Part shown: piece after piece, positions 24,836 through 37,889 of the stretch
Position numbering within the stretch: the first letter of the stretch is position 1
Layout: every line of letters starts with the position of its first letter
NCBI GenBank assembly: GCA_003388505.1
Contig: QQVO01000013.1
Span: 62,001 to 126,000, forward strand
DNA: 64,000 nt
Source: Planctomycetota bacterium
Lineage (GTDB): Bacteria; Planctomycetota; Planctomycetia; Planctomycetales; Planctomycetaceae
Direction of reading: 5' to 3'
Program-made: the position numbers and the translations under genes
The notes under the pieces: generated by a model
Database searches by the model: none
The model's input: the letters and a program-made list of their open reading frames with translations, nothing else
What the model was told of the DNA's origin: nothing

Positions 24836-26044
24836 TCACTGAGTCAGGTGGAGTTTGTAGACATAGATGTCGGGAGAGACGATCGGGCCTTCGGACAGGT
24901 CTTCCCGCAGAATAGCGGCGCGCGTGGTCACACACGTCGGCTGGAAAACGATCTGGAAACCGCCGTCTTCATCCGTGGAGACGTCCAGGATGCGGCCGGC
25001 CGCGAGACGAGTCGCCCAGACGCGAGTTTGTTTCCAGGACGAGGAGGGTTCAATCGAGTCGTAAAGCAGGCAGATGCGCGGCTGGCCGATGATCGCCCGG
25101 AGGGCATGGGCAGCGCTGGAGTTGGCCTGCGAGTCGCAGCGAAACGGCACGGCGCCGTCGTCGAATCGAAGCTGTCCGCCGAAGCCCCCGAGGTGGCCTT
25201 CGAGGAAGCCGCTCCGGCATTGCTCGGCGATGCGGGAGGCAACGAGACCGGTGCCGACGTCGATAACGTGGCAGTTGGCCTCGGTTTCTTCGTCGGCTGT
25301 CGCGTTTCTCGGAGCGCTGTGCAGGACGATCTCCGGGATGCCGTCGGGTTGTTCCCTGACGACGCCTGCGGCTGCGTCGAACGAGTAACGGTCGCCGCCG
25401 GAGCGTTCCTCGATCTGCCGCCTCCAGGTGTCGGTGCGTTCCCCCAGCGGATCGTTGTTCAGAATCGCCAGCGGCACGGCGGGAACGGCGCCTCCGGGCA
25501 GGCTTGCCACACCCACCACGCGGCCGTCGATGGTCGCTTCGGCCGGCGACACGACGTCCGCCGTGAACTGACCCGTCAGACCTTTGAAAAACAGCGCCAC
25601 GGGGTTTGATCGCCCGCGGGTCCGTCCGGCGAAGACCAGCACCGTGGTCGGAGACGATTCCGTTTCGAGGAAGACTTCACGTCCGGTATCGTCCAGCGCG
25701 ATCCGGCCGACGAGAACATCACCGCCGAGGCTCGCATCGAGCGTGACGGGATTGCCGGCGGCGAAGTTCCGGCCGGCCACGGCGGCTGCGGTGTCGCGGG
25801 CGATTTGGGCGCGGCCGGACGCATCGAAGGTTTCCGTGAGAATTCCGTCGTCTACGAGTTTCGAGGCGCCCGCCAGAGCGGCCGCTTCGGCAGCGGTCCG
25901 CAATTCCAGTTGAGCGGCGTCGATCCAGAGGCGATCGAGCACGAGTGCAACCGCCAGCCCCACCACCAGCAGCGCAACGGCGATCGCCGGGAGGAGATAT
26001 CCCGGTCGAGGGCCTTGCCGGTTGTGAATGATGGCCGGATGCAT
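24836..26044 (-). CDS. TadG-like pilus-associated protein (TadE/G family, Flp-Tad N-terminal domain)
   Basis: A 402-residue protein. After a short basic N-terminus, a single hydrophobic helix (YLLPAIAVALLVVGLAVALVLD) precedes AAQLELRTAAEAAALAGASKLVDDG, the usual Tad N-terminal pseudopilin-like pattern. The rest is extracytoplasmic with several Cys and no known catalytic motif. TadG proteins are thought to help anchor or initiate the pilus. It lies between cpaB and tadA in the cluster, and the gap to cpaB holds a hairpin. Confidence 0.85.
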   Translation of the reverse strand: MHPAIIHNRQGPRPGYLLPAIAVALLVVGLAVALVLDRLWIDAAQLELRTAAEAAALAGASKLVDDGILTETFDASGRAQIARDTAAAVAGRNFAAGNPVTLDASLGGDVLVGRIALDDTGREVFLETESSPTTVLVFAGRTRGRSNPVALFFKGLTGQFTADVVSPAEATIDGRVVGVASLPGGAVPAVPLAILNNDPLGERTDTWRRQIEERSGGDRYSFDAAAGVVREQPDGIPEIVLHSAPRNATADEETEANCHVIDVGTGLVASRIAEQCRSGFLEGHLGGFGGQLRFDDGAVPFRCDSQANSSAAHALRAIIGQPRICLLYDSIEPSSSWKQTRVWATRLAAGRILDVSTDEDGGFQIVFQPTCVTTRAAILREDLSEGPIVSPDIYVYKLHLTQ

Positions 26045-26103
26045 GCTGGATGGGTAACGGGACTCGGTTCGGAAGGGCGGCTTCCGCTGAGGAAACTGGC
26101 GGC

Positions 26104-26130
26104 GGCCCGCCGGCGTAAGACCAGCGGGCC
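26104..26130. terminator. GC-rich hairpin in the cpaB-tadG gap
   Basis: GGCCCGC at 26104-26110 pairs with GCGGGCC at 26124-26130. It could attenuate transcription within the tad cluster, or simply be another palindromic insertion; no T-run follows. Confidence 0.4.
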
Positions 26131-26184
26131 TGCCTCGATTCGCCGTGCTTGACCTTTCAGTGCGTTGCGGACGGGCGCTCAGTC

Positions 26185-27108
26185 TCAGGCGCTCGGGCCG
26201 CCGGCGGGAAGCTCCGAGTCGAGAGCGCCGGTTTCGCCGTCAATGGTTTGCGGCGGTTCACGACCCGATTCGGAATCCCGAGACCCGTTGTCGATCCGGC
26301 GTCGGTTCTGAAACTCCAGCACGGTCCGTCCGGAGCCGTAGAAGATCTCACTGGCGAACGGCCGTTCCGCTGCCGGGATCGGATCGAGTCCGAGGATTTC
26401 ATCGAGCGTGGCGCGATCGGAACGACTGACGGCAACGCCTCCGTCCCCTTTGCCTTCGGGGGTGTAGGTGAGCGTCAGGTCGCCCTTGTCACGGGCCAGG
26501 ATGATGATGTTCGCCTGCTCTTCGGAAAGTTCGAGGGTGACTGTGTTCCCGCCGCGGGCCGCCGGGCTGGCGCCGGACGTGCTGCGGTTGACCGCCAGCA
26601 CCTTGACGCCTTTGAAGAGCGTCATCGTCATGCCGCCGGTCCGTTCCTGGTCGCGGTAGCTGGCCGGCGTGAAGTGCACGTCGACGAACTCTTGCGGCCG
26701 GATCAGCCCGTCGACGGCGGAGGATCCGTCGCCGAGTGCGATCGACACAGCCCGCATGTTTTCGCCGAGTTCGAGCGGCGGAAACTCTCCGGGCGGATAG
26801 AGGTCGGTTGTCAGAATGGCGCGGGCGGCGGTGATGGGCTGCTTGACGACGCGGCCGACGACGACCCGGTCGCTGCGAATCGTTTCGGGCGTCATGTGCG
26901 ACTCGCGCATCCGCCCCAGGGCGATGTGCGCGTCGGTGATGACGGTCCCCGGTTCCAGGTCGGACAGCGCCATGGGGATGGTGAGGATTGGATCCTCCGG
27001 CGGGGCTTCGTCGCGGGCCAGGAGGGTCTTGGCGACGTAGCCGGCCACCAGCAGGCCGACGACGACGAGCATGAGCATTGTCAGTGCGGCGGGAGTCAGG
27101 CGTTTCAC
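26185..27108 (-). CDS. cpaB: Flp pilus assembly protein CpaB/RcpC
   Basis: A 307-residue periplasmic protein with an N-terminal membrane helix (MLMLVVVGLLVAGYVAKTLL), then an SAF domain (LSDLEPGTVITDAHIALGRM; VGRVVKQPITAARAILTTDL) and a C-terminal CpaB/RcpC region (VDGLIRPQEFVDVHFTP; TLFKGVKVLAVNR; TVTLELSEEQANIIILARDKGDLTLTY). The protein ends in a disordered polar tail. It is proposed to interact with peptidoglycan or the outer-membrane secretin. The start is a GTG at 27108. The CpaC secretin normally next to it is absent here. Confidence 0.92.
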   Translation of the reverse strand: MKRLTPAALTMLMLVVVGLLVAGYVAKTLLARDEAPPEDPILTIPMALSDLEPGTVITDAHIALGRMRESHMTPETIRSDRVVVGRVVKQPITAARAILTTDLYPPGEFPPLELGENMRAVSIALGDGSSAVDGLIRPQEFVDVHFTPASYRDQERTGGMTMTLFKGVKVLAVNRSTSGASPAARGGNTVTLELSEEQANIIILARDKGDLTLTYTPEGKGDGGVAVSRSDRATLDEILGLDPIPAAERPFASEIFYGSGRTVLEFQNRRRIDNGSRDSESGREPPQTIDGETGALDSELPAGGPSA

Positions 27109-27162
27109 GGTATTCTTCTCCAGACGGTCGGTTGGGGCGCCGGGCGGGTGGTTGAGCCGGGC

Positions 27163-27570
27163 TTACTCTTTGGCCATTCGTGTTTCGCAGTACAGGTTTC
27201 GTCCCTTGAGGCTGAAGCCGACCGGCCACAGCAGGTCGGGAGACGCGGTCGACATCGGCACGCGGACGGCGACGACGACCAGCTCTCCGGGAACGACATC
27301 GGTTCGGGCGTCGACCTCCGCATTGTTCAACAGATGCGGCGGGAGCGTGCGCCAGACCTCGTTTTCGACGTCCGCGATCGTTGCATTGTGCAGGGTGGCT
27401 TTTCTGGCCCCGGCCCGGCAGGCTTCGACCACGTCGGCGCGGGCGAAGAACAACAGGGAAAACTCGAACAGCCCCATCAGCAGAATGCCGAGAATCGGCA
27501 GCGTGAGCACCAGTTCCATGGTGAGCACGCCGCGACGACGGTGTCTGCGCTGTCCGGACTGACGAATCAT
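27163..27570 (-). CDS. TadE-like minor pseudopilin
   Basis: A 135-residue protein with the TadE signature: a basic leader MIRQSGQRRHRRRG, then VLTMELVLTLPILGILLMGL with the conserved Glu in the hydrophobic helix, followed by FEFSLLFFARADVVEACRAGAR. The remaining residues form a small extracytoplasmic domain. TadE/F pseudopilins are processed by the prepilin peptidase and prime pilus assembly. The ATG at 27570 gives a compact protein; the frame remains open to 28215, but that extension is Arg/Gly-rich antisense of cpaA. It lies 54 nt upstream of cpaB. Confidence 0.9.
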   Translation of the reverse strand: MIRQSGQRRHRRRGVLTMELVLTLPILGILLMGLFEFSLLFFARADVVEACRAGARKATLHNATIADVENEVWRTLPPHLLNNAEVDARTDVVPGELVVVAVRVPMSTASPDLLWPVGFSLKGRNLYCETRMAKE

Positions 27571-27597
27571 TGGAATCTCGCGTCGCAAACGTTGTCC

Positions 27598-27661
27598 GGT
27601 GGGCCCGGCCCACCAGTGGTGTTTATTCTCGAGTGGTAGATCAGCCTGATGGGCCCGGCCC
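27598..27661. repeat. Palindrome and partial duplicate in the cpaA-tadE gap
   Basis: GGTGGGCCCGGCCCACC at 27598-27614 is a near-perfect palindrome. TGGGCCCGGCCC recurs at about 27650-27661. It lies between two tad genes. Confidence 0.5.
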
Positions 27662-27731
27662 GGTTTCTCGTGCGGTCCTCGGTTTTGGACCGGGTGTTCG
27701 TTGTTCGATTTTCCTGCAACCGGCCGCAGCG

Positions 27732-28286
27732 CTACGGCAGTGTCGGGAGTTTCCAGATCAGGACCATCCAGGTGGCCAGAGCCACGGGGACGGCGTACGC
27801 CATGACGCGGCGGCCCTGTTTTTCCTCTGAGGTTTCTCGCTTCTTGCCATCTCGCTTCGTTCGGTCCTTGCCGGTCGCGAGATGTTTCTGAGCGGTCTTG
27901 CGGAAGCTGCCGGAAAAGACGCTGACCACGATGAATCCGAAAGTCGACAGCAGCACGATGACCGTGCTGGCGATCACCACGAGCAGCGTCATGTGGAATC
28001 CCAGCCAGACGCTGAGTGCGCCCATCAGTTTGACGTCGCCTCCGCCCCCTCCGCCGATGACCCACAGGACGAACAGGATGCCGAAGCCGAGCAGAAAGCC
28101 GAGTCCGGCGTCTGCCAGTCCGTCCCATCCGTGGAACACGCCCTGGTAAATCCAGCCTAGGGCGAAGACCGGCAGCGTGAGCTTGTTCGGAATCCTTCGC
28201 TGGCGCACGTCCCACACCGCCGCGGCCGCTGTGAACAGCGAAGCGGCAATCACGAGGACGATCGAGGCGGCGTTCAGTTCGGGCAT
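27732..28286 (-). CDS. cpaA: Prepilin peptidase CpaA/TadV (A24 aspartic protease)
   Basis: A 184-residue membrane aspartic protease that cleaves Flp-type prepilins. The first catalytic Asp lies in AAVWDVRQRRIPNKLTLP and the second in VIGGGGGGDVKLMGALSVWLG, the GxGD motif of the family. It has about five hydrophobic segments, followed by a basic cytoplasmic insertion (KHLATGKDRTKRDGKKRETSE) and a last helix, VPVALATWMVLIW. The ATG at 28286 (MPELNAASIV) precedes the first helix directly; the open frame to 28478 reads Arg-rich and is probably untranslated. It is the first gene of the tad cluster. Confidence 0.92.
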   Translation of the reverse strand: MPELNAASIVLVIAASLFTAAAAVWDVRQRRIPNKLTLPVFALGWIYQGVFHGWDGLADAGLGFLLGFGILFVLWVIGGGGGGDVKLMGALSVWLGFHMTLLVVIASTVIVLLSTFGFIVVSVFSGSFRKTAQKHLATGKDRTKRDGKKRETSEEKQGRRVMAYAVPVALATWMVLIWKLPTLP

Positions 28287-29375
28287 GGTCACGCGCGGAG
28301 GAAACAATGCGGGTACGGTTGTAGAAAACCTACCACACGTTTCAGAAACCAACCGTGCGTGTTGCCGAAGCGTTACAGATTCCTCACACCTCGCGTGCTT
28401 CGTAACGGTTAAACGTCTCGTGGAGCCTCGAAACGCCACAAACCGCTGTCGCCGGCGCGGCCGGTGATCTCCCTGCAACCGGCATCACCGGTGCGATCGC
28501 GCGTCCGGAGCCCTGTCTGGACTCACGCCAGGCCGCAGAGTTGCCAGTGAATGTCGACGTGCCCCATGCCACGGGCGGCTTGTCCGCCCGTGCGGTTCGT
28601 CCGCAGATTGCCCAGCGCGGGCGTTTCCAGCAGGACTCTTCTCGACCACAGCCTTGGAAGGCTGTCAGTGACGCACAACTCTCCCGAAACCCTCAAGCGA
28701 CGTTGACCAGAAACGCCGACTGCGAGCGACGCTGAAGGCGTTGCACAGCAAAGCCGGGGGTCGCGACGACAGGAGCGCACCCCCGATCTGCTTCAGAGTT
28801 CATGCGACAACGTCGACCACGACAACCCAGGGTGGCGCGGCTACGCCGCTGACCCTGGGCTCTGATTGTCGTACGCCTTCAGCGTACTGACTGCACCTGC
28901 GTGGACCGCGTTGACGCCGCCAGTGTGGGATCGAGTCGTGTGTAAGTGACCGCGCTGAACACCTGTCAGTGACACACAACTCGGCTGGGGCCCGCGGCGA
29001 GGAACCGGGCCCAAGGGATTCTCGAACAGGACACAGATTTTGGGGTATTCCTTGAAAGGCGGCGGTGACGAGACCGCATCGATCCAGGCGTAAATACTCA
29101 GCACTCCACTGAAAGCAATCAGCGAAAATCGGTCCAATCCGTGGTCATCCGCGTTCCATTCGAATCTCTCAGAGAGTCACTCCATCGGGGATCGAGAGAT
29201 GTGTGTAAACGGCAGCCTTGGGAGGCTGTGCTACAGACTCCGTACCACGGCCTTCCGAGGCCGTGGCGCCAAAATCGTATTCCCCTCCGCTGATCGCTCA
29301 GAAATACTCGCCAGAAGATAAGCACACGTTGGCAGCCCGGCACTCCGTTGCCAACCGGTGAATCTGTCCGCCCGG
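28287..29375. other. Gene-free, palindrome-rich region upstream of the tad cluster
   Basis: No reading frame here has convincing coding character. It holds at least five hairpins: CACGGGCGG against CCGCCCGTG (28570-28592), ACAGCCTTGGAAGGCTGT (28648-28665), CCCAGGGT against ACCCTGGG with a symmetric loop (28826-28859), CAGCCTTGGGAGGCTG (29213-29228), and CCACGGCCT against AGGCCGTGG (29245-29266). CTGTCAGTGACGCACAACTC at 28662 is repeated with one change at 28963. The promoter of the tad cluster should lie near 28300; no Flp pilin gene is found here. Confidence 0.6.
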
Positions 29376-32300
29376 TCAGTATGCTTCCGAAGCGTCGAGT
29401 CCATCGCGGGTGTTGTCGAGGAGATTGCGGTATGAGTCGGAATTCATCCTCTGGAACTCGCTATTGGCGTCGATCAGGTTCTTGCGCAGTTCGGATTGCC
29501 GCGCCGGTTGGCCGTCGTCCTGCTCGGCTTTTTTGGCCGCGGCTTCTGCCTCCGCTTGCGGCTTGTCCTGCTGCGACGGCTGCAACGGCTGGCGACCGCG
29601 GTAAAACGCGTATCGGTTCGCGTCGAGCCTTGCGATGACGGTGCTCGTGCCGCGTACGTCGTCGGCGATGAACAGGCCGCGCAGATCGGTCTCTCCGGCG
29701 ATGAACTCGTCGTTTGCGGAGCCGATGACGCGGACGTCGACGTCGTCAGCGTACTCATCCTCGGCGACGTCCTTGACCGTAACCCGCACGCGGCCGGAGG
29801 CCGGGTCTTCCTGGACTTCGAGTTCCAGCGGGCTCACCAGCACGAGTCCACTGGAATAATGGTTCTCGCCGCGACAGACGACGAGATACGCTCCGTCTTC
29901 TTCCAACGGGAGGTTCACGATCTGCTCGCGATCGCGGTAGTCGTTGCCGTCGCCGAGATCGATCGTCTCCTCGAAGTGCGGCTTGATCCCGGCGAGGTTG
30001 ATCGCGGTGATACGATCGAGGTTTCTCTGCATGAGTCCGAACTTCATCAGGTCGATGCGGTAGACCTTGATCGACACTTCCGGAATGTTGCGGAACCTGA
30101 GTTCCAACTGCCGGGCGTCGCCGGGGTGCAGCGTTGTCACTTCGTCGAGTGCGACGTCCTTTTCGGTGAAGAACTCGATCGCTTCCGCGGCGTCGGCAAA
30201 GCGATCCTTCACGCGCTGGTATTCTTCGATCGCTTCGCCCGGCTGCCCGAGGCTGTGGTAGATCTGCCCCATGATGTAGATCGCTTCCCACTTGTTCACG
30301 GCGTCGCGCTCCCGGCCGTCGTTCCCGGCGGGGAACTTCGCCTCGGCCACCTTGCGGCAGGTTTCCAGGGCCGCTTCGTGCCGGCCGAGAGCGAACTGGC
30401 TGTAGCCGGTGATGTACCAGTAGGCGTCGATCAGCCGGCTGTCGGGATAGCGCTCGGCATACTGATCACACCGCGCGATCACCGGTTCATACTGCTCGAG
30501 ATCGAGCAGCGCATTGGCCAGGGCGAAGCTCGCCTGGTCGGCCGCCGGATCCTGGGGCCACACGGCCAAAAAGTGATCGAGCATGTCGATCACGCCGTCG
30601 ATGAGGTTCACCCGGGTCAGGCCCGCCGCAACCAGCTTGGGGTCGCCGGCGGCTTCCGGCGCTTTGCGGTAAACCTCCTGCGCCAGGCCGTAGGTGGCGG
30701 CCGCGATGTACGGTTCGGCCGGATAGTCCCGCAGCAGATCTTCCATCACCTGTACGCTGTGCTGGAACTCGCCCCGTGCGTTCAGGAATCCGGCGACCTG
30801 CGACTCCCGCTCGAAGCTTCCCTGCACGGTCGACCGGTAAACGAGATAGCTGCGTTCGTATTCGCCGATCTCGCGATAGGCGTTGGCGACCTGCAGGATT
30901 TCCTCGAATTGCACCGAAACGTCAGGGAACTTCTCTTTGATGATCTCGAAGTAGCGGACAATCTCGCCGTGAGACTGCGCGGACAGCGACGTGCGGAAGA
31001 GCATCGTAACCGTTTGCTTGTAGGCTTCGTCGCGCAGCCGCCAGTCGGTGAACAGACGGCTCAGATGCTCGTGCGCGCCGGCATGATCGCCTTCGTTAAA
31101 CAACCAAGTTCCCAGGTTGTACAACTCATCGGGACTCCACCGGTACTCGTCGTCCGACTCTTCGCCGCGCTCCAGCACGGTCAGCGAACCGACGGCCGCC
31201 GCGGCCATCTGTTGCGGGTCGTAAAAGTTCCGCAGAACCGACGGCGCTACGCGATATTCGCCCGGCACATAACCCACCAGCGTGTACCGAATCCAGCCCA
31301 GATCCCGTTTGTCGCCGAGATAGAAGGTGATTGACCCGGAATCCATCTCATACCGTTCAAAATCGCCTTCAATCGATTCGGTCAGGACCGTGCAACCGGC
31401 GGGAAGCGGTTCGGTGAGGACCAGGTACGGATACTCGACGTCGCTCCGGTTGCTGACGTTGCGCCGGCGTGGAAAGAGCGACACTTCCCCGCGCTGACCG
31501 ACGGGAATCTGCGTGAGCGGATTCGTGAACGCGGAATACGGGAACGCCGCCACATTGAAACCGCGAGGAATGACCCGCCCATCGTGCAACCGGGCGGTCG
31601 GCTCGTAGCGGCGCTCGATCGTCCAGTCGTTCGTGCTCGACTTGAGGTTCTCGGCCGCCACGAACCCGGTCAGCACGGCCGAGTAGCTGAACTCGCCGCG
31701 CCCCTGCATGTCGAAGTTAATGCGTTGCGGCTTGTCGGCGACCAGCAGGTCAGCTGGCACGCTGATCCGCCGGCTGCCGTCCTGGGCGGGGTCGATTGTG
31801 AGCGTCTCGATTTCGCGGTCGTTGACGAAGACCTTGAGCGTGTACTTCTCCGCCACGTGCTCGGTTCGTGCGAACCACTCGGCCAGCGCCATGACGGCCG
31901 GACCGTTCGCCTTTTCCACAGGCCACCGCGAGCCGACCCGCGATCCAAGCAGTTCGTCCGCCAGTTCCGGAATCTTCACGCTCGCCGGATCAACCGCCTG
32001 GAGTGCGAGCAAATGCAGCGCTTTGATCTCCGCATGGTCGGACATCCAGGGGAGCGTTTTGCGATGCGGCTCCTCCGTAGCCGGCTCGTTGCCCACCAGT
32101 TGCAGCAGGTCGTTCGCCATTTCCTTGCGGTCCATCTCGATCAAGACCAGCGCTGAGTGCAGCAGCCCGGAAACCGACAGGCTGTTCCTCTCGCGATGCA
32201 ACTGGTTGGCGGCCGAAAAGTCGGCCTGGCCGGCCGCAGCCAGTCCGTGCAGGAGGATGGCCCGGCCGTTGTGATCGGTTTGCGGGCTCGCCGCCAGCGC

Positions 32301-35300
32301 GGTTTTCAGGTATTGCACCGCGTTGTTGAATGTGTTGGCTTCGACGGCGAACCCCGCATCGCGGGCCGTGGAAAGCGCCCACACGACGCGGCTGGTGAGA
32401 TAACGGTCCGGCTCGGCGGCAGGCTGCCCGCTCCAGCTCCAGGCGCCGTCGTCGCGCTGGCTCGAAATGAGCTGCGCAATCGCTGCGGCAATACGACCGG
32501 ATAGCGCTTCCGTTTCGGGCGTTCCCGCATCCCTCGTGTCGCCGATCATGTTCAGCAGCGCGACGCCGCCCAGAATGTCGGAGACCGACCGTTCAATGCC
32601 GCTCACCGGGATCGCGCAGCGTTCGACCGGGTAATAGCCCCCGCCGAGAACGGCGTCGAGCAACGCTCGGTTCAGGCCCGGCCCGATCAGCAGTTCGAGC
32701 GACGGCGACTCGGCGGCAATCTCGTCATCGAACGATATAAACGCAATCGTGCTCTGCGCCGCTTTCCCGCTGGTGGTGGCATACACCGGCAGACCGAACG
32801 GACGGATGGCGATGCTGCGGGTGCTCTCGTCGGACTCCGCATCCGCCGTGGCGACCGTGAGACCAAAGCGGATCGATTCTCCTTCGGTGATCTCGATCGG
32901 GAACGAGAGTTCGCTCACGCCCGGTCCGGTCACCTCCAGTGTGCGGCTGACTTCGGTCGTCCTCTCGCCGATGGTCGCCGAGAACGTGACTTGGATGCTC
33001 CGCTCACCTGCGAGCGAATTGTGCACCTCCGCCAGGACGCTGGCGGAATCACCCTCGGTGAAGGCGAGCGGGAGCTTGAGTTCGCCGAACAGGTCCTTTT
33101 TGGTCACGACTTCGATTTCCGTCTGACCGGCCAGCGACTCGCCATTGATGCCTTTCGAGCGCAGCGTCCACGCCGTCGACCGTTCGGGCAGCTTGATCGT
33201 CACGCTGGCCTGGCCGGCGCCGTCAGTGACGATCACCGGATTCCAGTACGCCGTCTCGGCGTTCGCCATGCCCGGCAGCAGCCGCAGGCCCTCTTCGGCC
33301 AACCGCTTCAGTTCATCTTCGTCCCGCCCATTGAGGGCAAAGTAGTTCCCGAAGCGGTCGACCCCGTTCAGGTTTCCATTCGTCGACTGCACAAAATCCG
33401 AAAACTCCTGCGGCGATTCAAAGAGAGCTTCAACCTGAATCTCCCCGTCGCTGAGAACGATCACGTCGTCGTCGTCGACTACGGATTGGTGCTGTCGAAT
33501 AATCAGACTCAACGTCGGCTCGTACTCTTCCGCAGTTTGATCGCTTGCCGGCAGCGCAAGGTTAACGCCGCCCTCATCCGCACGCCGCTTTCGATCGAGC
33601 CCGCCCACTGAAGTTCCCGCCGGAGCATCCATCGGCGCGTTCCCATTCGCATCTCCCAGAAATCCGCTCGCCGCATTCTGCCCCTCCCCGCCGAGTCGTC
33701 CAAGGGTGGGGTCGGTTGAGTTAATAACTCTGTGCTCTTCGAGGTCATCGAGTTGCATCCAGAATGAATTCTCTTCGTCGCTACGTAGGCCCCAATCGGT
33801 ATCGTTTCGGGATGCAAGCTTTGACTGGAGTTGCATTGATTGAACGATCGGGCTCTCCGGGGCGATTTGCCGCGCCTGTTCAGCGACTGCACGGGCTTCG
33901 CTGAAGCGCCGCTGATCCATCAGCGCGTTGAATTGCTCAACCAGTACGCGATCGACACCACCGCGTCCCCGTTCTGTATACTCGACTTCCTGGACCGGCT
34001 GAGGCAGTGCGATTCCGCTCCGTGTCTGAATCCTTTGCTCCATCTCCACGACATCCAGAAGATCCTCCGCTGCAGCAGCCTCGCGCTGCAGAATCTCTCT
34101 CCGCTCCGCCTCCGCCAGCAGGTACCGGCTGATGTCGCGCGTGCTCGGACTGTAGGAAAACGTGCAGCTTGTCGACTGACGGATCGACGGCACCCGCTCG
34201 CCGGCGCCGAAGAAAGCGTCGATCAGACCCTGCATGTCATCGAACCGCTGCAGCAGGTTGGACTGGATCAGCGCCAGCGAGAGTTCCGCACTCACCGGCC
34301 TCCCCTGCGGATCGGTGACTTCGATGTCGACGATCAGGTCATCGCCCGGCTTGAGTTCGTCCGCGTTCGCCGTGAGCTTCACGCTCAGCTTCTGCGCGAC
34401 CCGAAACTCGCTCGATGCCGAATGGAACCGGTTCCGCTCCATCACGGCGGCAGAGAGATTGAAATTCGGGGCGAGCGAGGAATCGACCGGAACGTCAATC
34501 ACGTTCTCGCCGGTCTCCAGGTTGACCAGTTGGTAGCCGAGGATCGACGCCCCTTCGTAGGTAATGAGCGCCAGCGCCGGCGCCTCGCGCCAGTGCAGGC
34601 GGACCTGCGCGTCGTCTCCCACCTTGTAGTTGTGCTGCTCGGCAAGAATCCGCAGCCGAACGGCGTCCTTTTCGCCCGAAATAAAGACTCGCGACTGCCC
34701 GCTGATCGTATTCCCGAACCGGTCTTCGCCCGTCGCCCGGATGATGTAGCGGCCCCCCTCCTCAAACTGCAGCGTCTGACGCGCTTCGCCGTTCTCTTCG
34801 TCGGTCGCGGCATCCAGCGTGTCGACCAGCCGTTCGCCCCGCTGTCCCCGCACGAATGTTTCTTCGAACACCTCGATCTCGAGCGGGGTCGCGACCGGCT
34901 CTCCGGCGGCGTCGGCCGCCTTGAACGTGGCGTCGAACGTCTCCCCGTCGATATAGACGTCGCGCAACGTGGAAACGGCGATTTCAAAGCCGCGCGTCGA
35001 GAGATACACGGTCTGCGACGTCGTCAACCCGCGGTCCGGGTACTGAACCTGCAGCGTGAGCGTCTGCGACTCGGCGTACTGCTGGGTCTCGAACGAGACG
35101 GGAACTTCGCCGTTCTCATCGGTGGTCGCCGTCTGCCAGCCGTCGTTGCCGAACTGGTAGCGGATCTCCTGCTCGGCCAGTGGAGCGCCGTAGTAGTACT
35201 TGAGCGAGATCATACCTTCGACGGTCTCGCCGCGGTAGCAGACGTTCTGTTCGAGTTCGGCCGTCAAACGGACCGGCTCCAGTCGGTATTCGAGGACGCT

Positions 35301-37889
35301 GAAACTCGTCTCGTACGACTGGTTCCCCGCCGGCTGATGCAGGTGCACGCGATAGTCCCCCAGCGCAGCAGCTTCGGGCAGGACGAGGTTGTCGGAAATC
35401 GTGCCGAAATCGTTCAGCGCTACATCCCGCGTGTGGATCAACCGACTGCGGGCGTCGTAGACATCGAGCTTGAACTTCTCACCCGCCTGAAACGTGAACC
35501 GGTCCTGGTCGACCCAGCGGACGATCGCCTTGATGTTGACCAGTTGTCCCGCCCGATAGGCGGGACGGTCGGTGTACAAATATCCCCGCGGCGTGAGTCC
35601 GACGGCGAAGTCGAGACCGTTGAGGTTGTTGACGGTCGAAGCCGCGTTCCCTTCCAGGACGGCGAACACGCGCAGGTCGCCGGCCGATTCGAGTTTCTTG
35701 TGGGTCAACTGCATCACGCCGTCGCCGCCGGTCACTTCTTCCGCGAAGATCTCGGAGCCGTCGCTGACCAGCACGCTGGCGCCGGCGGCCGGTTGGCCGG
35801 TCAGCATGTTCTGGGCGAAGAGGAACAGTTCGTTCCGCGACGCCTTGACGATGACGTCGAGATCGCTGACGACGACCATCGTCGTCGCTTCCAGCTTCTC
35901 GCTGGAGACAGTGACGGCCGTAACGCCGGGGCCGTCCATTGGAATGTCGACGTCGTCTTCGATCCGCAGAAACTCCTCGTAATCGCCGACCGTGTGTTCG
36001 AACTGTTCGTCGGGATCAATGAGCGCGATGTCGAGTGTTTCCACGCCGCCCGCCAGATGCATCTTGCGGAAATAGTCGTTCATGTCGATGCGGTAGACCT
36101 TGACCGTCACCGTTTCGACATTGCGGGTTGCGAGTTTGATCCGCGGCTGCTCGTCGGAACGGAACTTGCGCTCCGTCGCGACCTCCAGTTGCGGAGTGGT
36201 GAGCGCACTGATTCGCTCCTGGGCGTGCGACTGGAAATTCCCGGCGACCTGCTTGTAAGCATCCAGCGCTTCGGGAAGCTGCTCGAGTCGGGTCTCGAGG
36301 GTAAATCCAATCATGTAGGCTGCATGCGACGACTCCGCCGACCCCGGATACTTGGAAACCAGTCTCCGCCAATCGGCAATCGCCTGTTCAAAGAGCTGCC
36401 GGCCTTCGTCGTTCAATTCGACTGACTGAGGCGACTCGCCCGCATCAATCGCTTCCTTGATTCGCTCGACGTGCTGCTCCGACGCAGCCGTGAACTTCAT
36501 GCGGCCGAAGTTGAACAGAATCTGCGGTGCGCGGCTGTCGAGGGGATACTTGTTGAGGAAGGTCTCCCACAACGCGCGTGCTGCGTCGTAGTTGCCGGCC
36601 TCGCGTTGCTCCTCGGCCATGGCATATTCGGTGTCGACGATCGTCTGCTGGACCTCGGCCCACTTCGGATCGGTTGGATGTTGCGCGAGGAACTCCCGCC
36701 ACGCGGCGATTGCGGCGTCGTAATCTTTCTGGAGCAGCAGCGCCATCCCGAGCAGGTAACGAGCCTGGGGGACGACCTTTGATTCCGCGTACTCCGCGTT
36801 GCCGATGACCGACTGCAACTGGTCCACCGCCTGCGGTGTGCGGTCGCGGGCGATATAGCTTTGTGCGATCTCCAGTTCCGCCTGCGGGGCGAGTTCGTGG
36901 TCCGGATATTCCGCGATGAACTTTTCCGCGGCGGTGGCGCCCAGTTCCAGGTCGACGTCGTTCGACGGAGACGGAATGCCGTAGGTGTGGGAAAGCTCGT
37001 AGGCCGCCTTGGCCAGAAACTCCTGCACGTCCTCCGGCTGTTCTCCTTCGATCCCGGTCAACTCGCCGGGAAAGTCCTGCCACGTCTTGCGGGCCGCTGC
37101 CGACTGACCGGCGGCGAGTTGCGCCTGACCCAGCCGGAAGTGCGCCTCGGCGACGACTTCAATCGGCGCGGTTTCCCCCGACTCCGGTTCGTCGAGTCCG
37201 TGTTGCCCAAGAAACTGCTGATAGTCGGCGATCGCTTCGCCGACGTTGCCCAGTTCGTGCTGGCAGCGGGCAATCCGGAACTCGATGGTCTGTTGCACCG
37301 GGAGAGTTGGCCCCAGCTTGAGCGCCTCCTGGTAATATGTCAGCGCCTGCTGGTAGTCCGGCTGCTTCGCTTGGGACGGATCCTCCGCCAGCACTCCCTC
37401 GTAATACAGATTCGCAAACTCCAGATAGATTTCCGCCAGTTCGTCCTTTCTCTGCCGGGAGAGAAGTCGTTCGGCCTCGGCGCGGTAGATGTCCCCGGCC
37501 GCCTGGTACTTCCGCGCCCGGACGAAGATGTCCGCCCGCCCGAAGCGCGCCCGGCTGACCCAATCGCCTTCGGCAAACTCTTCTTCAATCCGCGTGAACG
37601 CTTCAACCGCCTCGTCGTAACGGGTCAGTTCGGTCAGAGCACGGCCTTTGAGGTAGAGCAGGAAGTCGGCGCTGGCCACGTTTGGTTCCGCGAGAGCTTC
37701 GTCGATCGCCGCAACGGCTCGGTCGTACTCGCGGGATTGGAGGGCGTCCCGGATGGCGGACTTCAGTTCGGGGGACGACGTGATCTCCGGCGCTGGCTTC
37801 TCCTCCGCCGGCTCATTCTGGGCGAGAATCTGGTGAACAGAAAACAGCGCAACAACACCCGCCAGCAGCCAGCATGTGGAGAAACGCAT
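29376..37889 (-). CDS. Giant alpha-2-macroglobulin-like secreted protein with TPR blocks at both ends, thioester lost
   Basis: A 2,837-residue protein with a Sec signal peptide (CWLLAGVVALFSVHQILAQ). Residues about 40-560 are TPR repeats. A macroglobulin-like domain beginning near IKLATRNVETVTVKVYRIDM (about residue 590) and further MG-type domains follow. A disordered, Asp/Gly/Asn-rich bait-like region spans about 1360-1480. The A2M domain WNPVIVTDGAGQASVTIKLP lies near 1545 and an alpha/alpha toroid near 1760-1970. Where family members have GCxEQ, this protein has SGIERS (residue 1763), so the thioester is absent. After about residue 2250 a second TPR block and a second domain with SIKVYRIDLM (about 2607) repeat the N-terminal architecture. 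The tail is charged and helical. Known A2Ms trap proteases; the role here is inferred to be envelope defence or scaffolding. GGAGG lies 7 nt before the ATG at 37889. Confidence 0.85.
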   Translation of the reverse strand: MRFSTCWLLAGVVALFSVHQILAQNEPAEEKPAPEITSSPELKSAIRDALQSREYDRAVAAIDEALAEPNVASADFLLYLKGRALTELTRYDEAVEAFTRIEEEFAEGDWVSRARFGRADIFVRARKYQAAGDIYRAEAERLLSRQRKDELAEIYLEFANLYYEGVLAEDPSQAKQPDYQQALTYYQEALKLGPTLPVQQTIEFRIARCQHELGNVGEAIADYQQFLGQHGLDEPESGETAPIEVVAEAHFRLGQAQLAAGQSAAARKTWQDFPGELTGIEGEQPEDVQEFLAKAAYELSHTYGIPSPSNDVDLELGATAAEKFIAEYPDHELAPQAELEIAQSYIARDRTPQAVDQLQSVIGNAEYAESKVVPQARYLLGMALLLQKDYDAAIAAWREFLAQHPTDPKWAEVQQTIVDTEYAMAEEQREAGNYDAARALWETFLNKYPLDSRAPQILFNFGRMKFTAASEQHVERIKEAIDAGESPQSVELNDEGRQLFEQAIADWRRLVSKYPGSAESSHAAYMIGFTLETRLEQLPEALDAYKQVAGNFQSHAQERISALTTPQLEVATERKFRSDEQPRIKLATRNVETVTVKVYRIDMNDYFRKMHLAGGVETLDIALIDPDEQFEHTVGDYEEFLRIEDDVDIPMDGPGVTAVTVSSEKLEATTMVVVSDLDVIVKASRNELFLFAQNMLTGQPAAGASVLVSDGSEIFAEEVTGGDGVMQLTHKKLESAGDLRVFAVLEGNAASTVNNLNGLDFAVGLTPRGYLYTDRPAYRAGQLVNIKAIVRWVDQDRFTFQAGEKFKLDVYDARSRLIHTRDVALNDFGTISDNLVLPEAAALGDYRVHLHQPAGNQSYETSFSVLEYRLEPVRLTAELEQNVCYRGETVEGMISLKYYYGAPLAEQEIRYQFGNDGWQTATTDENGEVPVSFETQQYAESQTLTLQVQYPDRGLTTSQTVYLSTRGFEIAVSTLRDVYIDGETFDATFKAADAAGEPVATPLEIEVFEETFVRGQRGERLVDTLDAATDEENGEARQTLQFEEGGRYIIRATGEDRFGNTISGQSRVFISGEKDAVRLRILAEQHNYKVGDDAQVRLHWREAPALALITYEGASILGYQLVNLETGENVIDVPVDSSLAPNFNLSAAVMERNRFHSASSEFRVAQKLSVKLTANADELKPGDDLIVDIEVTDPQGRPVSAELSLALIQSNLLQRFDDMQGLIDAFFGAGERVPSIRQSTSCTFSYSPSTRDISRYLLAEAERREILQREAAAAEDLLDVVEMEQRIQTRSGIALPQPVQEVEYTERGRGGVDRVLVEQFNALMDQRRFSEARAVAEQARQIAPESPIVQSMQLQSKLASRNDTDWGLRSDEENSFWMQLDDLEEHRVINSTDPTLGRLGGEGQNAASGFLGDANGNAPMDAPAGTSVGGLDRKRRADEGGVNLALPASDQTAEEYEPTLSLIIRQHQSVVDDDDVIVLSDGEIQVEALFESPQEFSDFVQSTNGNLNGVDRFGNYFALNGRDEDELKRLAEEGLRLLPGMANAETAYWNPVIVTDGAGQASVTIKLPERSTAWTLRSKGINGESLAGQTEIEVVTKKDLFGELKLPLAFTEGDSASVLAEVHNSLAGERSIQVTFSATIGERTTEVSRTLEVTGPGVSELSFPIEITEGESIRFGLTVATADAESDESTRSIAIRPFGLPVYATTSGKAAQSTIAFISFDDEIAAESPSLELLIGPGLNRALLDAVLGGGYYPVERCAIPVSGIERSVSDILGGVALLNMIGDTRDAGTPETEALSGRIAAAIAQLISSQRDDGAWSWSGQPAAEPDRYLTSRVVWALSTARDAGFAVEANTFNNAVQYLKTALAASPQTDHNGRAILLHGLAAAGQADFSAANQLHRERNSLSVSGLLHSALVLIEMDRKEMANDLLQLVGNEPATEEPHRKTLPWMSDHAEIKALHLLALQAVDPASVKIPELADELLGSRVGSRWPVEKANGPAVMALAEWFARTEHVAEKYTLKVFVNDREIETLTIDPAQDGSRRISVPADLLVADKPQRINFDMQGRGEFSYSAVLTGFVAAENLKSSTNDWTIERRYEPTARLHDGRVIPRGFNVAAFPYSAFTNPLTQIPVGQRGEVSLFPRRRNVSNRSDVEYPYLVLTEPLPAGCTVLTESIEGDFERYEMDSGSITFYLGDKRDLGWIRYTLVGYVPGEYRVAPSVLRNFYDPQQMAAAAVGSLTVLERGEESDDEYRWSPDELYNLGTWLFNEGDHAGAHEHLSRLFTDWRLRDEAYKQTVTMLFRTSLSAQSHGEIVRYFEIIKEKFPDVSVQFEEILQVANAYREIGEYERSYLVYRSTVQGSFERESQVAGFLNARGEFQHSVQVMEDLLRDYPAEPYIAAATYGLAQEVYRKAPEAAGDPKLVAAGLTRVNLIDGVIDMLDHFLAVWPQDPAADQASFALANALLDLEQYEPVIARCDQYAERYPDSRLIDAYWYITGYSQFALGRHEAALETCRKVAEAKFPAGNDGRERDAVNKWEAIYIMGQIYHSLGQPGEAIEEYQRVKDRFADAAEAIEFFTEKDVALDEVTTLHPGDARQLELRFRNIPEVSIKVYRIDLMKFGLMQRNLDRITAINLAGIKPHFEETIDLGDGNDYRDREQIVNLPLEEDGAYLVVCRGENHYSSGLVLVSPLELEVQEDPASGRVRVTVKDVAEDEYADDVDVRVIGSANDEFIAGETDLRGLFIADDVRGTSTVIARLDANRYAFYRGRQPLQPSQQDKPQAEAEAAAKKAEQDDGQPARQSELRKNLIDANSEFQRMNSDSYRNLLDNTRDGLDASEAY

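Follow-up and report, generated by a model that had tools for sequence, protein, structure and literature searches.

The window analyzed here is a stretch of 64,000 nucleotides from a planctomycete genome. Its minus strand carries an open frame that starts with an ATG at position 37889 and stops at position 29376 (coding 29379-37889 plus stop). Translation of this frame gave a giant protein of 2,837 aa and ~310 kDa related to the protease-trapping alpha-2-macroglobulins (A2Ms), here referred to as the double-ended protein, whose parts are compiled in Table 1.

Table 1. Parts of the double-ended A2M-family gene and its product, with positions in the window
Feature	Residues	Positions	Strand	Basis
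Whole gene: double-ended, thioester-less A2M-family protein	2,837 aa	29376-37889	-	Open frame; A2M, MG2 and A2M_BRD over Pfam cut-off
Signal-peptide-like N-terminus without lipobox	~1-23	37821-37889	-	Sequence MRFSTCWLLAGVVALFSVHQILAQ, judged by eye; lipobox pattern absent
N-terminal TPR array	44-564	36198-37760	-	TPR Pfam models; model helices 21-541
First NIE-like beta domain, contains VKVYRIDMNDY	567-683	35841-36191	-	Model strands 544-660; profile A3
First MG1-like beta domain (Pfam bMG3)	688-755	35625-35828	-	Model strands 665-732; bMG3
MG2 domain	768-865	35295-35588	-	PF01835, E 3.6e-18
A2M_BRD (bait-region domain)	1080-1208	34266-34652	-	PF07703, E 5.5e-12
Hypervariable bait region	~1262-1520	33330-34106	-	Length and sequence vary among 43 homologues, often Gly/Ala/Pro rich
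TPR-like hairpin within bait region	1314-1389	33723-33950	-	tblastn match G000:C6, E 3.8e-17
A2M (MG7) domain	1546-1635	32985-33254	-	PF00207, E 5.2e-13
Thioester-domain (TED) fold, CxEQ lost	~1742-2030	31800-32666	-	Profile A5; motif alignment
C-terminal MG (CTMG/bMG10) domain	2120-2237	31179-31532	-	Profile A2 positions 86-203 vs YfhM 1496-1634, E 1.4e-14
Second TPR array	2253-2575	30165-31133	-	Model helices 219-541; TPR Pfam matches 2433-2560
Second NIE-like beta domain, contains IKVYRIDLMKF	2578-2695	29805-30158	-	VIA-align to 4zjh
Second MG1-like beta domain	2700-2764	29598-29792	-	VIA-align to 4zjh; profile A4 vs 4zjh, E 1.4e-5
C-terminal helical tail	2776-2824	29418-29564	-	Model helices 742-790; tails compared among homologues

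According to Pfam, the gene is neighbored by Flp-pilus genes and by flavin reductase/SecA-like genes. The Flp/Tad pilus-type genes (CpaB/RcpC and an A24 prepilin peptidase) are located downstream at 24836-28478 and were not conserved beside the homologues. Between 38948 and 46499, one strand encodes a short SecA-like ATPase of 635 aa and, after it, HlyD-like, M50-peptidase/HlyD-like and outer-membrane efflux (OEP) proteins, a set which looks like an accessory export cluster. No conserved neighbor gene was found in the ~6 kb flanks of 42 homologues; apart from shadow frames of the A2M-like gene, nothing there had widespread matches.

The core of the protein is that of an A2M. MG2, A2M_BRD and A2M (MG7) were present in this order, each over the Pfam cut-off, and bMG3 scored 34.3 bits against a cut-off of 34.9 on the first MG1-like domain. 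Profile A5 matched the TED region of YfhM and of human A2M with E-values of 1e-34 to 1e-43 (1e-42 for the TED of YfhM), and profile A3 aligned from its position 91 onward with YfhM and the Salmonella A2M. By profile comparison the TED fold is followed by a C-terminal MG domain, the succession expected of the A2M superfamily. The thioester itself is missing: the GCxEQ motif was not found in the double-ended protein (P0001), and in the motif alignment its place reads SGIER.

The bait region sits between the A2M_BRD and A2M (MG7) domains. It contains a TPR-like hairpin of ~76 aa that shares 51% identity with part of a secretin-like protein of 1,592 aa encoded in the same genome (contig C6, L081), and no hairpin at this level of identity was seen in the bait regions of the 42 homologues. 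The hairpin apparently results from domain shuffling between two envelope proteins. A different TPR-like hairpin was observed by eye at the same place of the bait region in the distant homologues L070, L073, L075 and L079.

The initial annotation had described a TPR block ending in a single macroglobulin-like domain at either end of the chain. The order of TPR and beta structure holds at both ends, and the two motifs that were used to locate the domains begin at residues 596 (VKVYRIDMNDY, given as about 597) and 2607 (IKVYRIDLMKF, as given). However, behind each array lies a pair of beta domains, NIE plus MG1, rather than a single domain, and at the second end a helical tail comes after the beta pair. 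The extent of the duplication was therefore understated, since the duplicated unit is a TPR array together with two beta domains that match NIE-MG1 of the E. coli A2M.

Comparison of residues 1-900 with residues 2151-2837 by BLASTP aligned the two ends directly (391-682 with 2431-2693, E = 4e-11). The beta part alone gave E = 7e-10, with 28% identity over 102 columns. In profile-profile comparison based on 43 homologues, the N-terminal and C-terminal units of TPR plus beta pair matched with 100% probability (E = 7e-44) and the beta pairs alone with E = 3e-31. In a control the C-terminal pair was compared with residues 1-2240, and its sole match was residues 564-750 (E = 7.5e-26, next best E = 0.03); against the remaining core domains taken singly the best value was 6e-4. 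Since the C-terminal pair matches residues 564-750 only, the likeness of the ends is not a general Ig-type similarity, and this domain-by-domain control excluded chance or generic Ig-like resemblance. The TPR arrays matched each other with E = 1.6e-20, but several registers scored nearly equally, so that the sequence cannot tell which repeats were copied.

AlphaFold2 models were built from alignments of 43 rows for residues 24-880 (mean pLDDT 91.1) and 2035-2837 (mean pLDDT 88.3). In both, a long TPR array leads into a pair of beta domains whose strands follow one another in identical order and at nearly the same model positions (544-732 and 544-730, respectively). The C-terminal pair matched NIE-MG1 of the E. 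coli A2M by VIA-align, both in entry 4zjh (Z 14.9, 191 aligned residues, rmsd 4.0) and in entry 4zjg (Z 14.7). For the N-terminal model, TPR proteins fill the matches listed by VIA, and Foldseek placed the Salmonella A2M at rank 4. The profiles of the N-terminal and the C-terminal unit both matched one stretch of the E. coli/Salmonella A2M (222-333 of the YfhM chain). Together with the common strand order, this is indirect evidence that the second domain corresponds in fold to the first, the point on which the initial annotation had made its reading depend.

In total, 42 homologues with long open frames were collected, three from GTDB contigs and the others by a phylum-wide search with the C-terminal unit; all 43 aligned proteins belong to Planctomycetota. 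Both units were present in each of the 43. An artefact of annotation, of a frameshift or of a single genome was rejected, as 42 further open frames without stops carry both units. When all units were placed in one tree, the N-terminal copies of the 43 proteins formed one group (support 96/95) and their C-terminal copies another (99/95). The two outgroup rows of this tree had very long branches, joined each other and were not used as root. The separate grouping of N and C copies means that one duplication preceded the split of these lineages and that both copies have been inherited since. The N-terminal module of TPR, NIE and MG1 was thus duplicated a single time, prior to the divergence of these planctomycete proteins, and its copy came to lie after the CTMG domain. 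The internal duplication proposed in the initial annotation is hereby supported, the second pair being specifically homologous to the first and occurring in every homologue examined.

The C-terminal unit was matched in 124 of 392 planctomycete genomes, a count that includes weak matches which may be ordinary A2Ms. Strong matches of its profile (E under 1e-50) were found in at least 73 of 297 nearer genomes. Among the matches listed, the strong ones came from ~19 genomes of the source's own family and from nearly all of one other family (f5). In many genomes the complete frames showed a second, weaker match to the C-terminal unit ~1,950 aa upstream within the same open frame. No plasmid relatives were found. 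Two double-ended A2Ms, both with thioester, occur in one genome, G169 (L075:5897-13966 and L079:3172-11286). The open frame of L067 (5728-16056) has 3,443 aa and is ~800 aa longer at its N-terminus; no Pfam domain was found in this extra part, which may be a mere upstream open frame. In divergent members the Pfam support for the A2M core weakens, and L071 had no match to PF00207.

An A2M normally ends at the CTMG domain. This applied to the other A2M of the genome (2,132 aa), which ends at MG10 (bMG10 at 1981-2102), carries the thioester YPYGCTEQ and contains an NIE-MG1-like stretch only once, at 448-657. TPR-like sequence was recognized by eye ahead of this stretch, although no TPR model passed in Pfam. 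No second NIE-MG1 copy was found in this protein or in E. coli YfhM; among the A2Ms examined, the double-ended layout is therefore unusual, as had been suggested. With Type I A2Ms (E. coli YfhM/ECAM, Salmonella SaA2M) the planctomycete protein shares the order NIE-MG1, MG2-MG7, bait, TED and CTMG. It differs from them by a TPR array ahead of this order, by TPR-NIE-MG1 and a helical tail after CTMG, and by the lack of the CxEQ thioester. YfhM-like Type I A2Ms are lipoproteins with a pbpC neighbor; the planctomycete protein has no such neighbor, and the lipobox pattern was not found at its N-terminus. The literature collection searched held no paper joining macroglobulin, tetratricopeptide and planctomycetes.

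The CxEQ thioester was absent in 34 of the 42 relatives and kept in 8. In the tree built from both ends, one group with support 100 united 34 proteins without thioester, and L076 lacked the thioester elsewhere in the tree, so that thioester status changed twice. Loss would be the likelier direction, because ordinary A2Ms, including the other A2M of this genome, have the thioester. The C-terminal helical tail was found only in the thioester-less group of 34; the thioester-bearing homologues end directly after the second MG1. The tail may mark an assembly that has changed in the thioester-less clade. It was observed to end often in a GV-x-V-like motif.

A thioester-less A2M has been studied in Pseudomonas aeruginosa. 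This protein, the Type II A2M MagD, has 165 kDa and belongs to a six-gene mag operon; in the account cited here it traps TEV protease non-covalently after bait cleavage and binds partners from its own operon (PMC5764988). The A2M core with a bait region and without a thioester is common to MagD and the double-ended protein, whereas TPR ends are not described for MagD in that account (PMC5764988). No mag-like operon was seen by Pfam analysis of the genes beside the double-ended gene.

The second known system with related features is CAGE, a recently described hollow D2 homotetramer of ~1 MDa that is most prevalent in PVC bacteria including Planctomycetota (PMC12485934). CAGE proteins are Tetrahymena CAGE1-3 and Dictyostelium AbpF, and most bacterial forms have signal peptides of 21-22 aa, which eukaryotic forms generally lack (PMC12485934). 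Their domain order is alpha-alpha-beta(x6)-split beta around alpha-beta-alpha-alpha-200 aa beta, with helical domains at 1-105 and 142-443, beta domains at 444-555, 556-635, 636-748, 758-843 and 851-951 and a sixth that is split, then the split beta around a helical domain, a beta domain at 1606-1738, helical domains at 1751-1833 and 1879-2011 and a beta part at 2014-2215 (PMC12485934). In Tetrahymena CAGE1 (2,216 aa) no Pfam domain was found, A2M was the best fold match for domains 4 and 6 only, and the paper mentions neither TPRs nor a thioester nor a duplication (PMC12485934).

When these published boundaries were compared with our models and profiles, the domain order was alike (PMC12485934). 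The lengths in the planctomycete protein and CAGE, respectively, were ~118 and 112 aa for NIE, ~87 and 80 for MG1, ~108 and 113 for MG2, ~130 and 133 for CTMG and ~196 and 202 for the C-terminal beta pair (PMC12485934). The C-terminal succession of a helical and a ~200 aa beta part, the prevalence in Planctomycetota and the bacterial signal peptide, putative in the double-ended protein, are likewise shared (PMC12485934). In contrast, the planctomycete protein is longer than Tetrahymena CAGE1 (2,837 against 2,216 aa), and its A2M domains are easily found by Pfam (PMC12485934). No CAGE chain was among the PDB matches listed, neither by sequence (P0001 and profiles A1-A5, up to 60 matches each) nor by fold (up to 50 matches); the PDB entries may be unreleased. 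Given the same domain order and similar lengths, the chance that the planctomycete family represents bacterial CAGE or near kin appears even or somewhat better, an assignment set by the published boundaries. The split beta around a helical domain in CAGE resembles CUB around TED.

Taken jointly, we lean towards an explanation in which the protein with its anciently duplicated end module forms an envelope-exported, closed and hollow non-covalent trap and is probably the bacterial form of CAGE or its nearest relative. The signal-like start without lipobox suggests that the protein would be exported to the cell envelope. Like modules at both chain ends suit a closed symmetric assembly, and the subunits may associate via their two TPR-NIE-MG1 ends into such a hollow structure. 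Since the thioester is absent, the protein would not bond covalently, and protein clients or proteases could be enclosed and retained non-covalently. The trigger may be a cut in the hypervariable bait region, by analogy to the thioester-less MagD. The most likely role would thus be that of a non-covalent trap or container in the cell envelope.

We consider it unlikely that the protein is instead a monomeric Type II A2M, a MagD-like protease trap whose TPR ends both dock partners or the envelope and build no cage. The missing thioester and the retained bait region would fit such a monomer, and TPRs usually bind proteins. The behavior of MagD towards TEV protease and its operon partners, as given in the cited account, points in the same direction (PMC5764988). 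However, unlike the mag or pbpC operons, the 42 homologues have no conserved neighbor, and conservation of the duplicated end in the whole family hints at a symmetric role. Also improbable is a general envelope container or chaperone without protease trapping, in which the bait region would now be a mere linker. The main lineage is without thioester, and the CAGE authors, who saw no cargo, propose that their complex is a chaperone, a container or a protease trap (PMC12485934), yet the bait region is still long and variable as in active A2Ms, and relatives of identical double-ended layout retain the thioester. Two independent fusions of TPR and Ig-like domains without any duplication are largely refuted and highly improbable: such folds are common and the TPR registers are ambiguous, but among the MG domains of the protein only the N-terminal pair is matched by the C-terminal one, and both pairs match one and the same YfhM stretch.

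CAGE itself might be an A2M-superfamily machine that arose from a thioester-bearing bacterial protease trap, a proposal to which we give slightly less than an even chance. Here the N-terminal module would have been copied to the C-terminus, the thioester lost, and the like ends would close a symmetric hollow tetramer. The steps would be retained in living planctomycetes as single-ended proteins with thioester, double-ended proteins with thioester and double-ended proteins without it.

The A2Ms considered in this analysis and in the papers cited are single-ended, whereas this family has one module at both ends and has kept it across a phylum. As it comprises double-ended proteins with and without thioester, it would show how a covalent protease trap could turn, step by step, into a closed container. 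If the family is bacterial CAGE, that megadalton complex would gain an origin and a function that can be tested.
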